A stretch of 64,000 nt of DNA from Coriobacterium glomerans PW2 (GTDB lineage: Bacteria > Actinomycetota > Coriobacteriia > Coriobacteriales > Coriobacteriaceae), in contig NC_015389.1 of NCBI RefSeq assembly GCF_000195315.1, positions 930,001-994,000 on the forward strand, given 5' to 3'. Numbering within the stretch: the stretch's first letter is position 1; every line of letters starts with the position of its first letter. The notes under the pieces were generated by a model. It searched no databases. It was not told the origin of the DNA and saw only the letters and a list, made by a program, of their open reading frames with translations. The position numbers and the translations under genes are program-made. Of this stretch, positions 3,739-10,801 are shown in pieces.

Positions 3739-3832
3739 GGAGCAACGTATTCTCATTTGCGGCGAGGCGCAAGGCTCAAGCTGAGAAGTCCCGTGAACGG
3801 TCGGTCTGATCGGTCGATGTGCATTGTCGCGT

Positions 3833-3960
3833 TCTGATTTCGAGGCGCACGCGGTGCCGCCTCGTGAAAACAAAAGCAGGCCACCGCATCTGTTCGCGAT
3901 GGTCTGCGATCTCTCTTGGAGCGGGCGACGGGAATCGAACCCGCTTCATCAGCTTGGAAG
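3833..3960. repeat. Left direct repeat of tRNA-Gly island (orphan tRNA 3' half plus terminator)
   Basis: These 128 bases align without gaps to 10644-10771, with about ten mismatches. The copy comprises the 3' half of tRNA-Gly on the minus strand (3917-3960, anticodon loop through CCA) and the hairpin downstream of it (arms 3877-3883 and 3900-3906, followed by a T-rich run on the minus strand). After 3960 the similarity stops abruptly. This is what is left when an element integrates into a tRNA gene and the displaced 3' half remains at the far end. Confidence 0.85.
3917..3960 (-). pseudogene. tRNA-Gly 3'-half remnant
   Basis: Forty-four bases identical, except for one position, to the 3' part of the intact tRNA-Gly at 10728-10801: half of the anticodon loop, the 3' anticodon strand, variable loop, T arm, acceptor 3' strand and CCA. 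The 5' half is absent; sequence after 3960 does not resemble tRNA. It cannot fold as a tRNA and is best read as an integration scar. Confidence 0.85.
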
Positions 3961-4275: not shown

Positions 4276-4281
4276 TATAAT
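4276..4281 (+). promoter_or_regulatory. -10 hexamer of bacteriocin promoter
   Basis: A consensus TATAAT preceded by an A/T-rich run (TTTTTTTTAAAAG). No good -35 hexamer is seen at 17 bases, so activation by a bound factor is plausible. The ATG at 4280 lies inside this hexamer and therefore cannot be the start of the bacteriocin gene. Confidence 0.55.
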
Positions 4282-4339
4282 GCTTTTAAGACGTACGCAC
4301 GCGCACTTCGATTTACACGAAAGTGGCGGGAGGCTTGTT

Positions 4340-4714
4340 GTGTTTAATTACAAATCGTTTGCGTGTAAAGCGCTATTTGGTGCGGCTATAGGATGTACTT
4401 TGATGACTGGAGTGGCATATGCGAATCAGCCCTCTGGTCCACAAGCAAATGTTGAGCAGTCCTCTCTTCAACAGACATCACCTAAGCAATCGAAAGATGC
4501 TTCCGGTGGCACTTGGACATATGGGAACTATGGTGATATGCATATCCACTCCGATTTTTATCATCCAAGTAAAGACCATGGAAGCTCGTGCGAGTTGGAT
4601 GGACAGAATGCGACAAGTCCTGAGTGTGATGGCGGACAGACATCCCAAGCCTCTAAATGGTGCCTTGTTGATCTACCTTGGACGCTAGATAAGTACTGGT
4701 ATCATCTCTCCTAG
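4340..4714 (+). CDS. Lactococcin-972-family bacteriocin precursor
   Basis: 124 residues from GTG 4340, which has GGGAGG six bases upstream; an earlier in-frame ATG at 4280 overlaps the -10 hexamer. Residues 1-28 form a signal peptide (positive start, hydrophobic core, cut near GVAYA/NQ). The mature part has the lactococcin-972 pattern: GGTWTYG, then spaced Ser/Tyr/His (HSDFYHPSKDHGSS), a Ser/Gln-rich stretch, a tryptophan (ASKW) and an aromatic C-terminus (KYWYHLS). Lactococcin 972 is Sec-exported and blocks septum formation by binding lipid II in sensitive cells. Unlike the lactococcal peptide, the mature region carries three cysteines. The next gene encodes the permease typical of these loci. 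Confidence 0.75.
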   Translation: MFNYKSFACKALFGAAIGCTLMTGVAYANQPSGPQANVEQSSLQQTSPKQSKDASGGTWTYGNYGDMHIHSDFYHPSKDHGSSCELDGQNATSPECDGGQTSQASKWCLVDLPWTLDKYWYHLS

Positions 4715-4746
4715 TGCAAATTATTGATACCAGTGTTGATTTTCGG

Positions 4747-4775
4747 CCGGTTTGTGCGGTGCAAGCCGGTTTTTT
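4747..4775 (+). terminator. Attenuating terminator after the bacteriocin gene
   Basis: CCGGTTTG / CAAGCCGG stem (one G-U pair) with a 7-base loop, followed directly by six Ts. It lies between the bacteriocin and its permease gene, so it probably makes bacteriocin transcripts more abundant than transporter transcripts, a common layout in such loci. Confidence 0.75.
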
Positions 4776-4789
4776 GATGGGGGGCCGTG

Positions 4790-6826
4790 ATGCTGAAATG
4801 GTTGGTTCGCCTGAGCGCTGCCATACTCGCTTGTGCAATATGCTTTCTCTCGATATCGTATGCAGAAGCGCGACAGAACGGCGCACCTTTTGATGCAACT
4901 ATGTCTTTTACCATCGACTGTTCGGCTTCGGATCTATCTTCTGAGAGAGTTTTTACTGAGCTGAAGAACGTCGCAGATCGCTTTGGAACCCATATCGTCA
5001 GAATCAAAACCAACTCAGAGCAAAACCGCGATATAATCTGGCTGGCATCATCTTCTCCCTCGAATATGAGCCCGGCTGTAAATGGTCAGCAAATCCTGTG
5101 GCTTGATAGAACGCTTGCGGGTAGTCTTGTCACCTCGGATGAGGCGGGCACTTCGTCTCCGAACGGCGACTATCTAATTCCTGCAACAGCTGTAGGGGCG
5201 AAATCGGCGCTCGCCGATTGGGCAGGTGTCCACCGGGTCACATTTACGTGGAACGGAACTCGTGCACCCGACGATAATTTCTTTGCCGTTGTGCGATTCT
5301 GCACCTCAACCTCTGCGGGATTGTTGTACTTCTCCGCGGTGCTCTTTTTTGTCTGTGTTATCGTCTTTCGACTCGAGGAGAAAAGCAGAGACCATGCTCT
5401 TCTCGTACTGTACGGAAGATCGATTCGCTCAGTCAGAACCGAGCAGATCTTGGATATCGCAGTACCGGCACTGCCTGCTATGGTGATCAGCATGCTTGCT
5501 TTTCTTGCCTGTATCGCTTTAAGCGACCATGCCGTCCAATTCTTTGTGGTGTTGCCAGAAATCAAGATGGTCGTTCTCTTTACTTTGGCAATGCTTCTGA
5601 TCATGGGAGCGGGCCTCCTTATTGCTGCGAGACCATCTGTTCATCATATGCTGGAAGGGCGCGCCGCTACGAACAAAAGGCTGCGTATCTGTCGTTCCGT
5701 CTTTTTTCTCATCTCCATATGCATTTCCGTTTTCACCATCCCTCTCTCGGTTGTGGCTTTCGATCAAGCGACACTTGCTCTTCATGAGGCAAATTTTTTC
5801 AGGTCTCATCCCGAGGCCTCAAAGGTGTCTTTGCACGTCACCGGATACGATGGAGGGGCTCAGCTGATTCCAGAAAAAACGCTGGAGCCCTTTCTGATCA
5901 GCGCGGAGAAGCACGGGATCCTGAGACTGTCATACGATGTCTCGCAGGGAATCGAGTTGCGTGAGCAGGACCTGGGTCACTTCGATGGTCTTGCCATCGT
6001 CGATCGCCGCTACGTGTCCGACGCTGGAGTGAACGTCTGTGAAAACAACGATTCTTCGACGCGAGCGAGCCTTCCAGAAGGACCTCATCTGGTTCCCGTC
6101 ACGCTTGATAGCCTGCAACCGGATTCGCGCACGCGTATTCGCAGCATCGCCCATCTCTGGACACGGTCTGGGCAGGTGGATGATTCGATGACGGTTTGCA
6201 GATTTGTGGGCTCCGGTTTTCCCGTTCTCGGTCCGAATGTCGCCTCAGGTGGTAAGACGATCACCTATAGGAATCCTCTTGTCTTGCTGATCGACACCCC
6301 AACTGACAGTCTCAACGCGCGGTTTCTAGATTCGATGCTTTCAACGGGAAACATTTTCTTTTCTCAAAAGGATTTGATCCCGCAAATCGCTGATGAGAGC
6401 GACATGTCCCAATATATCTATTCTGTCGACAACCTCTCCGATGCGGCTTTGTATGCATATCAGAGGTTTACGATCATGCTGCGCACCTATGCTCTCGGCG
6501 CTGCGATGGCTTGTCTATCGCTTCTACTGCTTTGCATTCAGATGGCATGTATCTGGGCCATTGAGAACCGCCGCCGTATCTTTGCTCTCAGATCTGCCGG
6601 TAGAGGCTGGCTATCCATCTCTCTCGAAAAGTCAGCTCCGCTCCTGATTGCTCTTGCGGTCTGTGGCGCTATAGGTTTTCACTTCTGCATCTCTCGTGGC
6701 TATAACCTTTTCTATCTGTTGGCTGCTTGTCTTATCTTGGCTATGCTGGCATGTGTGGTGACGTTGGGCACGAGAAGCTTGGCCGCCATAAAAGTATTCA
6801 AATCAATAATCCACAGGGCGCACTAG
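4790..6826 (+). CDS. Bacteriocin-associated integral membrane protein (ABC permease / immunity type)
   Basis: About 678 residues from ATG 4790 (a GTG one codon earlier is possible; GGGGGG lies upstream). Topology by eye: one N-terminal hydrophobic helix, an extracytoplasmic segment, four helices between about residues 178 and 335, a large extracytoplasmic domain (about 340-560) and three C-terminal helices. This is the layout of the FtsX/MacB-like permeases that accompany lactococcin-972 genes and are thought to give export or immunity. It lies 12 bases after the attenuator and 10 bases before its ATPase. Codon use is less GC-biased than in flanking chromosomal genes, supporting transfer. No specific residues prove substrate. 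Confidence 0.7.
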   Translation: MLKWLVRLSAAILACAICFLSISYAEARQNGAPFDATMSFTIDCSASDLSSERVFTELKNVADRFGTHIVRIKTNSEQNRDIIWLASSSPSNMSPAVNGQQILWLDRTLAGSLVTSDEAGTSSPNGDYLIPATAVGAKSALADWAGVHRVTFTWNGTRAPDDNFFAVVRFCTSTSAGLLYFSAVLFFVCVIVFRLEEKSRDHALLVLYGRSIRSVRTEQILDIAVPALPAMVISMLAFLACIALSDHAVQFFVVLPEIKMVVLFTLAMLLIMGAGLLIAARPSVHHMLEGRAATNKRLRICRSVFFLISICISVFTIPLSVVAFDQATLALHEANFFRSHPEASKVSLHVTGYDGGAQLIPEKTLEPFLISAEKHGILRLSYDVSQGIELREQDLGHFDGLAIVDRRYVSDAGVNVCENNDSSTRASLPEGPHLVPVTLDSLQPDSRTRIRSIAHLWTRSGQVDDSMTVCRFVGSGFPVLGPNVASGGKTITYRNPLVLLIDTPTDSLNARFLDSMLSTGNIFFSQKDLIPQIADESDMSQYIYSVDNLSDAALYAYQRFTIMLRTYALGAAMACLSLLLLCIQMACIWAIENRRRIFALRSAGRGWLSISLEKSAPLLIALAVCGAIGFHFCISRGYNLFYLLAACLILAMLACVVTLGTRSLAAIKVFKSIIHRAH

Positions 6827-6836
6827 GAGGTTCGGT

Positions 6837-7478
6837 ATGGAACTGAGAATCGAAGGAGCGACTGTGCGGATAGGTGGTGAGGCGATATTCGAGAATGTTT
6901 CATGCACTCTGAAATCGGGTACGCTCAACGCCTTGATCGGACCATCGGGCTGCGGCAAGACCACACTGCTCAACTGCATCAGCCTTTTGCAACATCTTGA
7001 TGCCGGCAGCGTCTTTATCAACGGGGAGGAGGCCAGCGGTTGGCCGGAACGATACAGGAGGAGATTCTGGAGCAGAGATGCCGCTTTCATCTATCAGGAT
7101 AGCGGTGTGATCTATGATGAAAGCATATTTTACAATATCGCATTAAGAAGACGACCTCGCTTTTCCTGTTTTATCAACCGCTCTGCACTGAATACACGTG
7201 TCAGGAATGCGTTGGATGCAGTTCAGCTTGATCGTCCAGAGCGCGCATTGGCCTCAACGCTCTCGGGAGGCGAAAAGCAGCGGCTGGGAATTGCCCGGGC
7301 GATGTTCAAGGATGCCGCGGTACTGTTCGCCGACGAGCCGACGGCTTCTCTAGACAAAGCCAACCGCGACAACGTTGCATCTCTTCTAAGGGATTGCGTC
7401 AGCCGTGGGGCCCTGGTAGTCGTTGCAACGCATGATGCGCAGCTCGCGCGTCAGAGCGATCAATGCATCGAACTCTGA
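6837..7478 (+). CDS. ABC transporter ATP-binding protein, lactococcin-972 group
   Basis: 213 residues with complete ATPase motifs: Walker A GPSGCGKTT near residue 41, Q-loop IYQDSG, signature LSGGEKQRLGIAR, Walker B VLFADEPTASLD and a switch His (VVATHD). The short length fits the MacB/LolD-like ATPases found with lactococcin-972 bacteriocins. GGAGG lies eight bases before the ATG, and the gene is ten bases after the permease, so the two form one transporter. It powers movement or removal of the peptide at the inner face of the membrane; whether for export or self-protection cannot be told. Confidence 0.85.
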   Translation: MELRIEGATVRIGGEAIFENVSCTLKSGTLNALIGPSGCGKTTLLNCISLLQHLDAGSVFINGEEASGWPERYRRRFWSRDAAFIYQDSGVIYDESIFYNIALRRRPRFSCFINRSALNTRVRNALDAVQLDRPERALASTLSGGEKQRLGIARAMFKDAAVLFADEPTASLDKANRDNVASLLRDCVSRGALVVVATHDAQLARQSDQCIEL

Positions 7479-7570: not shown

Positions 7571-9769
7571 ATGACCAAACTGATCTCAGTATTGAAAGCC
7601 GCCGTCATCGTTCTGATCGCGATCTTGCTGTCATTTCTCTTCAGCGAGCTATGCAGCGAACATTTCACCGAGGTCGCAGAAGACTATCCTCGTGTTTCAG
7701 CTTCTTTCACCCTAAGCGACGTAGAGCAAAGCAGGCAGGCGGCGTCGCTCGCCGTGCTCACAGATTACGCGACAGAGAACGGATCGTTGCTGGTGAGGAC
7801 CGATCAGCTGTTCTCGGGCGGAGCGGTCGTCGGCACCAGGCTCGGCGTTGCGGGAAATGTGACGAAAAACAGCAAGGACGCTGATCTCGACTTCATGGGA
7901 ACGAAGGTTCTCGATTCAGCCAAGCTTGAGCGGCTGATGGATTCCTCATCGCCTACCGCGACTCTCGGCTTGCTGCAGTCGCGCACGGACATGATCGAGG
8001 ATCTGCCGTCCTTCATGCTCGGCAACAGGATCGTCGCGGAGAAGCTATCGCACCTGGTCGATGACACGGGGACCGCGAACGGCACCTACCGGGTCACCGG
8101 ACTGGGATCAGCACAGGTCGCAGAGCTCGCCGGCGCGCTCGCGGAGGCGTCGGGGACCAGCTCGGAGCGGATCCTGCATCCGCTGAGCGGCCACGAGACC
8201 AGATCGGTGATCGTCAGCGTCATTCCGCCTGTCGCGCTGGGCGCTCTCGTGTTGCTCGTCGCGCTCTTTGTCGTTTCCGGCATACGAGACCTGCCGGAGC
8301 TCGGCGCGTGCGTGACGTGCGGGTGGTCTCGATCGGAATTCGCGTTTGAACGCACGTGGCGGTGGATGGTGATGTCGTTGATCGCCATCCCTATCTCTTG
8401 GGTCTTCGGAGCTTGGGCGACCGCCTCGACGCTGCTTTCGTGGGAGTTTCTCTCCTACATGGGCGGATCCGGTCTTCTCACCGTGCTTTGCGTGGCCTCT
8501 AGCGTCGGCGTCGCCTCGCTGATCTCGCTCAGAGTCCCTGCCGCCGACGCCATACGCAATCGCATCTCGCGTCGGCTCGTCGTCGCCGTGCTGCTTGTCG
8601 CCTATATCGGGTCTGCAGCATTTGCGGATCTGTGCGGATTCATCCTTGATGCGCCCCTTCAGGAGATGCGGGCCGATGCCGAGATCGCGCGCCTCTGGGG
8701 AGACGTTTCCGGTCTGAGGGTGCTCGAGCGCATGAGCGCGGAGGCGGATGCCGCGAGCATATCGGGTCAGTCCGATCGACTCTCGAGGAAGTTCTACAGC
8801 TGGTACTCGTCGATAGCCGATGCCGAAGGCGTCTACCTGGCTCATACGCAGTATATGGCGCAGAGCAACTTGGACGTTCTGCGCGGCGCCGATGCCACGA
8901 TCGATCTTCCCACCAAGCCTTTTAGGACCTACACGGCCTCGCCAAACTATCTCGCGAGCCAGGGCTTCGCCGTGGATCCCGCGCTCGTCGCCGCAGCGCG
9001 CTCCGGCACCCGCGTCTACCTTGTGCCCGACACGATGCCCGCTGCGGAGCGCTCCCGGATCGAGGCGTACATGCGCAGGTCGGACACCATGGACGTCGAC
9101 GACGCCTCCGGCATCCAGACCGCGTTCAACGCCAGCCGGTCGTTCTCCTTCACCACCTACGAGCCGAGAACCGACCTGTTCTGCTGGGAGACGGACACGT
9201 CCCTTCCCCAGACGACGCGCGATGCGGTGATCTGTTTGTGCGTGCCTCAGAACATGATCTTCAGAGAGGACGAGAGCCTGTGGGCGGCTGGCCTGTCCAA
9301 CAGCTATATCAAGCTCGCCGACACGGCAGCCAGAACCTATCTGAGTCGGCCCTATCTGGCCCGCTTCGACCTCGTTGCCGACGATCCGGTGTTCACCGGG
9401 ACCGCGGAGCTCGTCGCCGGGATGCGGAAGTCTCTTCAGCAGACCATGGAGCTCTTCGGCGGCGTCGCGGTGCTGGCCGCAGGCGTCATGGTGGCCATGG
9501 TCCTCGGCCTCATCGCCGCCTATCAGGCGGCTTTCCGCGAGGAGGTGGCGGCCAAGCGGCTCCTGGGGTTCTCGACCCCGGCGATCTACCGGCTGCCCTT
9601 CTCCGTCGTCGGGATCGTCTTTATCGTCGCCGAGGCCGCCGCCGTCATCATGGGCTCGCAGCTGGGCATGGTGCTCGCCGTCTTGCTGCTCGCGCTGCAG
9701 CTCGCCGTGCTCTCCGGCTACGTCCACCTCACCGCAGCCCAGCAGATCAATCGCATGCTCAAGGATTAG
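7571..9769 (+). CDS. Second bacteriocin-associated permease
   Basis: 732 residues with the same overall plan as the first permease: one N-terminal helix, an extracytoplasmic domain (about 30-210), helices around 215-240, 260-285, 295-320 and 340-360, a second long extracytoplasmic domain (about 365-625) and three C-terminal helices ending in a Lys/Asp tail. AGGTGACCC lies just before ATG 7571. It is separated from the first pair by 92 bases without a clear promoter. Base composition climbs steeply toward the 3' end, unlike the first pair, which suggests a different origin. Likely partner is the ATPase eight bases downstream. Function as bacteriocin export or immunity is inferred from context. 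Confidence 0.65.
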   Translation: MTKLISVLKAAVIVLIAILLSFLFSELCSEHFTEVAEDYPRVSASFTLSDVEQSRQAASLAVLTDYATENGSLLVRTDQLFSGGAVVGTRLGVAGNVTKNSKDADLDFMGTKVLDSAKLERLMDSSSPTATLGLLQSRTDMIEDLPSFMLGNRIVAEKLSHLVDDTGTANGTYRVTGLGSAQVAELAGALAEASGTSSERILHPLSGHETRSVIVSVIPPVALGALVLLVALFVVSGIRDLPELGACVTCGWSRSEFAFERTWRWMVMSLIAIPISWVFGAWATASTLLSWEFLSYMGGSGLLTVLCVASSVGVASLISLRVPAADAIRNRISRRLVVAVLLVAYIGSAAFADLCGFILDAPLQEMRADAEIARLWGDVSGLRVLERMSAEADAASISGQSDRLSRKFYSWYSSIADAEGVYLAHTQYMAQSNLDVLRGADATIDLPTKPFRTYTASPNYLASQGFAVDPALVAAARSGTRVYLVPDTMPAAERSRIEAYMRRSDTMDVDDASGIQTAFNASRSFSFTTYEPRTDLFCWETDTSLPQTTRDAVICLCVPQNMIFREDESLWAAGLSNSYIKLADTAARTYLSRPYLARFDLVADDPVFTGTAELVAGMRKSLQQTMELFGGVAVLAAGVMVAMVLGLIAAYQAAFREEVAAKRLLGFSTPAIYRLPFSVVGIVFIVAEAAAVIMGSQLGMVLAVLLLALQLAVLSGYVHLTAAQQINRMLKD

Positions 9770-9777
9770 GAGCCTAT

Positions 9778-10521
9778 ATGTTCAGTCGCACCGCATCGCA
9801 TATGGACCGCATGGAGGCGACCGGCGTCGAGTGCGCCGCCGGCGCGGCGCGGCGAGCACCGGTCGTAGAGGCCCGAGGACTCGCCAAATCCTTTGGCGGC
9901 CGCGTCATCCTTCCCGGACTGGATCTTCGCTGCCAGGCGGGCTCGGTCACGGCGATCACGGGCCCCTCGGGCTCGGGGAAGTCGACCCTGCTCGACATCC
10001 TCGGGCTGCTCGAGGCACCCGACGCAGGCGAGCTGACCATCTGCGGCGGGTCGGCCCCGTCCTGCGCGTCGCGAGCGGCGACCCTGCTGCGCCGCCGCTC
10101 GATCAGCTACCTGTTCCAGTCCAACGCGCTGGTCACCGGCCGCACCGTGATGGACAACCTTCTGCTCGCGCTGCACTACACGCGCGAGAGCGCCTCGCGC
10201 AAGCGGGAGCGGGCGCGCCGGGCGCTCGCAGGCGTCGGGCTCGTCGGCGCCGAGGCTGCACCCGTGAGCATCCTGTCCGGCGGCGAGCAGCAGCGCGTCG
10301 CCATAGCCCGCTGCATCCTGAAGCCCGGCGAGCTGGTCCTGGCCGACGAGCCGACCGGCTCGCTGGACCGCCCGCTCGCCCGCGAGGTGTTCGGCCAGAT
10401 CCTGTCTCTGCGCGATGAGCACGGCAAGACCGTGATCGTGGTGACCCACGATCCGGAGATCGCTGCGCGCTGCGACACCACAGTCGAGCTGAGCGCAGCC
10501 GCAGCGCGCACGGCATTTTGA
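9778..10521 (+). CDS. ABC transporter ATP-binding protein (MacB/LolD type), second pair
   Basis: 247 residues from ATG 9778, with AGGAG overlapping the stop region of the permease. Walker A GPSGSGKSTLL, Q-loop YLFQSNALV, signature ILSGGEQQRVAIAR, Walker B LVLADEPTGSLD and switch His VVTHD are intact. There is a 30-residue N-terminal extension before the ATPase fold begins (VVEARGLAKSF). Very high GC, unlike the first ATPase of the island. It is the last island gene before the right repeat and pairs with the upstream permease. Confidence 0.85.
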   Translation: MFSRTASHMDRMEATGVECAAGAARRAPVVEARGLAKSFGGRVILPGLDLRCQAGSVTAITGPSGSGKSTLLDILGLLEAPDAGELTICGGSAPSCASRAATLLRRRSISYLFQSNALVTGRTVMDNLLLALHYTRESASRKRERARRALAGVGLVGAEAAPVSILSGGEQQRVAIARCILKPGELVLADEPTGSLDRPLAREVFGQILSLRDEHGKTVIVVTHDPEIAARCDTTVELSAAAARTAF

Positions 10522-10643
10522 TGAGGCAGTGGTTTCGAGTTTGGATCAGAAGGTTGCAGAAACAGGAAAAACGGTGGTCAGGCACTTGGTGGTCTCATAT
10601 TTCAACATGCCCTTCGCAGCTCAATCGTTCCATGGGTTCACGC

Positions 10644-10801
<158 letters not shown>

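Follow-up and report, generated by a model that had tools for sequence, protein, structure and literature searches.

Lactococcin 972, encoded by plasmid pBL1 of Lactococcus lactis, is described as having lipid II as its target and as inhibiting septum formation (PMC9964109). Two transcripts are reported, one of the structural gene alone, along with export of the product by the Sec route (PMC4786598), and orf2-orf3 are called immunity genes (PMC4055356). TMcin, presented with a DsbA-type gene in PMC12328743, belongs to another bacteriocin class and was set aside. In a search of literature mostly accessible without subscription, no title or abstract was found on cysteines in the lactococcin 972 family, nor any paper bringing lactococcin 972 together with "coriobacter".

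The window, meaning the whole 64,000-nucleotide stretch of DNA analysed here, comes from Coriobacterium glomerans PW2, a gut symbiont of firebugs. It contains what is probably an acquired bacteriocin gene of the Lactococcin_972 family with an immunity pair, whose product would have a bond between Cys84 and Cys108 (Table 1). The analysis demonstrates the family, the fold match, the gene order, where the cysteines sit and which of them recur in one relative, as well as the low GC and the flanking repeats; export, target, immunity, disulfide and mobility are predictions.

Table 1. Features of the bacteriocin locus, in coordinates of the window
Feature	Position	Strand	Basis and remarks
Left flanking repeat	3827..3960	.	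134 nt, 91% to right copy; 44-nt tRNA-Gly 3' end plus 90 nt beyond
TATAAT hexamer, possible -10 box	4276..4281	+	By eye; absent from promoter scan output, weak
Bacteriocin precursor	4340..4714	+	PF09683, 38.9 bits; AF2 model and fold match; signal cut by eye
Terminator-like hairpin, then T run, separating the peptide gene from that of membrane protein 1	4745..4771	+	12 pairs; RNA fold -18.7 kcal/mol, z -1.2, modest
Membrane protein 1, FtsX-like, 679 aa, putative immunity/export permease	4787..6826	+	PF02687, 25.6 bits, cut-off 25.5
ATPase 1 of ABC transporter	6837..7478	+	ABC_tran 2.6e-29; best NCBIfam model TIGR03608 (L_ocin_972_ABC), 168.7 bits, under cut-off 254.85
Membrane protein 2, weakly DUF1430-like, 732 aa	7571..9769	+	PF07242, 17.4 bits, under cut-off 28.2
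ATPase 2, start inferred	9769..10521	+	ABC_tran 2.5e-28; TIGR03608 again best model, 206.1 bits, under cut-off 254.85
Right flanking repeat	10638..10771	.	134 nt, 91% to left copy; overlaps intact tRNA-Gly 10728-10801 (-)

The precursor is an open frame of 124 aa with a GTG start behind a GGGAGG ribosome site at 4328-4333; no clear -35 element could be seen by eye for the TATAAT hexamer upstream. Judged by eye from the translation, residues 1-28 look like a Sec signal peptide ending in AYA; a Ser/Gln-rich linker (residues 29-55) and the Lactococcin_972 core (56-124) follow. The match to PF09683, at 38.9 bits (cut-off 22) and an E value of 1.3e-9, runs over residues 55-120 and profile positions 1-62 of 62, and as a sequence match is far from chance. 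The NCBIfam model TIGR01653 (lactococcin_972) gives 18.4 bits, under its cut-off of 32.1, so the peptide is assigned to the Pfam family PF09683 only. The original prediction, made from the bare letters, had proposed a relative of lactococcin 972 and suggested a search with this profile; both profile and fold agree with it, as does operon order, and the ORF is real and a member of the family. The GGTWTYG start, Ser/Tyr/His spacing and aromatic C-terminus (YWYHLS) that it listed are all present in the core, as are its three cysteines, C84 (4589-4591), C96 (4625-4627) and C108 (4661-4663). It erred in placing these in a Ser/Gln-rich insert: the stretch of that composition is the linker preceding GGTW, the cysteines sit in the core, and the core, at 69 aa vs 66 aa in lactococcin 972, has no insert of note. 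Nor does the mature peptide appear to begin at GGTWTYG, as had been supposed, since signal peptidase is likely to cut between AYA and NQ, after residue 28, which would leave the 27-residue linker in place unless there is a second cut. Two further cysteines, C9 and C19, lie inside the signal peptide.

A model of the core was built (AF2) with eight relatives, seven from Bacillota and one from a viral contig. It has six strands, and only one of the five models was confident, with a mean pLDDT of 75.1 for the best and 35.9-43.3 for the other four. When 350,542 chains were searched with Foldseek, the two leading matches were 2lgn, Lactococcin 972 (TMt 0.70), and 9hkj, Formosin D (TMq 0.75), both with E above 0.001, yet with probability 1.00; a second structure comparison gave Z 9.8 for 9hkj and 8.8 for 2lgn, the next row standing at 5.9. 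As modelled, then, the core is closer to these two than to all other solved structures. In the model, C84 is in strand 3, C96 between strands 4 and 5 and C108 directly after strand 5 (model numbering 33, 45 and 57). The product would be a bacteriocin of the Lactococcin_972 family, exported by the Sec route and folding, once the signal is removed, as a small beta sandwich. An intramolecular bond between Cys84 and Cys108 would most likely fasten strand 3 to the point where strand 5 ends, with Cys96 either free or engaged in a covalent dimer.

The order of peptide, hairpin, membrane protein and ATPase is that of lactococcal plasmid pBL1; the gene order is also found in the relatives L011 and L012, and in L016 and L017 a membrane protein follows the peptide before the available stretch ends. 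The pair directly downstream of the peptide gene is most likely the producer's immunity, and the hairpin (one of 10 such sites in a scan where 6.3 were expected) may cause more peptide than transporter to be made. No NCBIfam model, TIGR01654 (bact_immun_7tm) included, matches membrane protein 1, and membrane protein 2 reaches 10.2 bits with TIGR01654, under the cut-off of 189.35; PADLOC gives no match for the peptide or either membrane protein. Directly after the first pair lies the second (7571-10521), with host-like GC3, possibly a second immunity or peptide-resistance transporter. By analogy with lactococcin 972, the peptide would bind lipid II of closely related Gram-positive bacteria that compete with the host and block their wall synthesis at the septum. 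In pyrrhocorid midguts Coriobacterium is reported alongside Gordonibacter, Clostridium and Lactococcus (PMC7926433), and these three are likely competitors of the host.

Cysteines were counted in sampled family members, over cores taken from GGxW to the stop. Each of the 16 cores from actinobacteria or the same order (L002-L010, L014, L029, two in L011, L012, L019 and L046; window excluded) has at least one. The records of L011, L012, L019 and L046 name Actinomycetota as their source, and for the unnamed loci "actinobacterial" stands on kinship labels. Twelve of the 16 have exactly two; there is one in L005, L006 and L014, and one in L010 ahead of its stop. L007-L009 are near copies, as are both cores of L011. 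No cysteine occurs in 12 of the 13 Bacillota cores (L013, L015-L018, L020-L027, with L026 partial), L020 having one, nor in the cores of L028, from a viral contig, and L047, from a Bacillus phage. The sample is partial, plasmid and phage hits having been taken at 2 of 2, 2 of 4, 5 of 13 (pBL1 among them), 2 of 381 and 1 of 5; the 2 of 381 include the query's own record, and 372 of those 381 are from Staphylococcus, none of which was taken. Three chance pattern matches, in L002, L004 and L011, were left out of the count.

Cysteines are therefore not rare in the Lactococcin_972 family, and in the proteins sampled there is a phylum-level split between actinobacterial members and the 12 of 13 Bacillota members that have none; it is by placement that the window peptide differs. 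Nine of the 16 cores have one cysteine directly before the conserved His and the other at or next to the C-terminus, a second arrangement occurs in L004 and L019 and a third in L046, and the window peptide matches none of the three. The view that cysteines are unusual for the family thus holds for the lactococcal prototype (L013, with none) and fails for the actinobacterial members sampled. The original prediction had also counted conserved cysteines in many known members as evidence against it; this applies in part, cysteines being common to all the actinobacterial and same-order cores sampled, at positions other than those of the window.

The nearest relative (L010/L030, in genome G606) belongs to the same order and another family, and carries an in-frame TAG. 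Before the TAG, 27 of 47 residues are identical to the window peptide; read past it, with X at the TAG, 35 of 68 aligned residues are identical, the shared features including HGSSCELDG, Cys84 and Cys108. It has no clear start codon, and a C-terminal cysteine instead of Cys96. Since this relative shares Cys84 and Cys108 and not Cys96, the three are likely, as read from the sequences, to comprise a conserved pair and a thiol that varies, and the earlier suggestion of a single disulfide with the remaining thiol free, or of a dimer, is plausible. The broken gene (L030, 1902-5000) has open frames next to it for the membrane protein (701 codons) and the ATPase, immunity apparently having outlasted the weapon. 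A search of 392 genomes of the order with membrane protein 1 ranks that membrane protein first (196 bits), a protein of G681 second (157 bits), and after these three proteins whose genes adjoin two-Cys peptides (129-132 bits). At the G681 locus (L044, 3131-5777), whose membrane protein and ATPase belong to the same clade, no peptide of the lactococcin 972 kind was seen upstream, and the two look like an orphan immunity pair. Membrane protein 2 has one distant relative among the other 64 genomes of the host family, in G238 (L045, 2037-5101, minus strand): 28% identical, with one in-frame stop and an open ATPase frame adjoining, in a genome with no PF09683 match. Patterns from the exact peptide (HGSSCELDG not among them) found no close relative of the whole peptide in genomes or viral contigs, and no relatives of the L010 and L007 cores were found in viral contigs. 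Searching plasmids by tblastn gave two weak matches with the window peptide and none with a Formosin D stretch or L007; a phage tblastn match of the window peptide, in a Bordetella phage at E 0.5, was taken as chance.

Whether a Cys84-Cys108 bond could form in this host was approached through a search for thiol oxidases. The host genome has no match to PF13462 (control matches in E. coli and Corynebacterium glutamicum) or PF07884 (control match in C. glutamicum), and PF01323, with control matches in both, is found in none of 65 genomes of the host family, host included, so that these profiles revealed no homologue of DsbA or VKOR in the host. Exported host proteins nevertheless contain cysteines: NlpC/P60 proteins have 2 and 3, a GH25/DUF5648 protein 8 and a penicillin-binding protein 5. 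Cysteine is thus not excluded, and absence of DsbA alone does not make the peptide strange. A comparison of cysteine content between exported and other host proteins (1.77 vs 1.91 percent), covering the window and ten 20-kb host stretches, proved unusable, the signal-peptide rule having admitted many cytoplasmic proteins.

That the odd cysteine links two copies into a disulfide homodimer, a divalent lipid II binder locked in its natural dimeric state, is unlikely: the number of cysteines is odd, lactococcin 972 is called homodimeric in PMC4289311, and the unshared Cys96 falls in a model loop, but no oxidase was found with the three profiles, and the nearest relative, lacking Cys96, has its extra cysteine at the C-terminus instead. 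It is distinctly unlikely that the cysteines remain free thiols in an anoxic habitat, or serve with the five core histidines (H68, H70, H75, H80 and H122) as metal ligands, with no disulfide at all; the empty profile searches would suit such an arrangement, but H80 alone of these histidines is invariant among relatives, and the sampled actinobacterial members as a rule have their cysteines in pairs. A decidedly doubtful extension of the preferred reading would make this a sub-lineage with its own redox chemistry, having a conserved Cys84-Cys108 bond and, besides it, a movable third cysteine that links two copies into a covalent dimer in air without DsbA or VKOR. The Cys84-Cys108 placement is used by none of the intact members sampled, the relative that shares it being one interrupted copy. 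Were this true, the dimer would form as the peptide left its anoxic producer for air, and activity or target range would be redox-dependent.

It is very unlikely that the gene is in decay and kept for its immunity genes only, with the cysteines a product of drift: the TAG of the nearest relative and the orphan pair of G681 would accord with this, but the window copy is intact in frame, start, ribosome site and core, and retains the two cysteines common to it and that relative. Scarcely credible is a lipoprotein cut before Cys19 and held at the cell surface, for although residues 16-19 read AIGC, the hydrophobic stretch continues to AYA and, by the lipobox rule, AIGC with a Lys among the six residues before it is a poor lipobox. 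The preferred reading is an intact exported bacteriocin with a Cys84-Cys108 bond. If that bond forms, the peptide would offer a way to examine how a secreted antibacterial protein folds oxidatively in a lineage whose genomes gave no DsbA match (PF01323, 0 of 65 genomes), and whether the placement of cysteines alters lipid II binding or target range.

GC3 is 0.40 in the peptide gene, 0.55 and 0.58 in the first pair, 0.81 and 0.83 in the second pair, and 0.84 and 0.80 in two flanking genes; with low values in the peptide and first pair vs flank-like ones in the second, the block has the look of a mosaic. The five genes together occupy a 6.8-kb block enclosed by the 134-nt direct repeats, which agree at 43 of 44 positions in the tRNA part and 79 of 90 in the rest. 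No integrase gene was seen between the repeats, and Rfam found two tRNAs only. The repeats (3827-3960 and 10638-10771) may be the scar of an integration or mark the edges of an island. The genes of the peptide and first pair have the appearance of acquired DNA, carried on a possibly mobile island with a duplicated tRNA-Gly end on either side. Counting the host each time, PF09683 is found in 1 of 65 genomes of the host family, 7 of 395 of the order, and 6 of 396 and 4 of 396 in samples of the class and phylum; the host genome has a single match. The window thus adds a bacteriocin of the lactococcin 972 type to a family whose other 64 genomes, of 65, gave no match. Elsewhere in the host genome, L051 (3244-4647, minus strand) encodes a BREX ATP-binding protein (PF10923, 530.8 bits), a BREX locus likely being there, and L054 (7341-13088) is another stretch of low GC3 (0.43-0.45), with the GH25/DUF5648 exported protein with 8 cysteines.

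Compared with known systems, the window peptide resembles lactococcin 972 in its putative signal peptide, its (E/G)GTW core start, its His/Ser/aromatic spacing, its predicted fold and the membrane protein and ATPase that follow, with 19 of 63 aligned core residues identical; lactococcin 972 differs in having neither cysteines nor a linker before the core, and pBL1 in having no second transporter pair annotated after the first. Formosin D, of the same family, is the best fold match by Z, with 26% identity and a common HP.K.HGS motif, though without cysteines in the sequence stretches compared. The two-Cys actinobacterial proteins (L003, L007, L011, L012 and L029) share family and operon order with the window, and its membrane protein clade includes those beside L007 (in L031) and L029 (in L034) and the one in L012; in them one cysteine immediately precedes the conserved His and the other stands at the C-terminus or next to it, whereas the window peptide has neither. 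The bacteriocin locus of the window is real and ordinary in appearance, its unusual trait being where the cysteines are placed.
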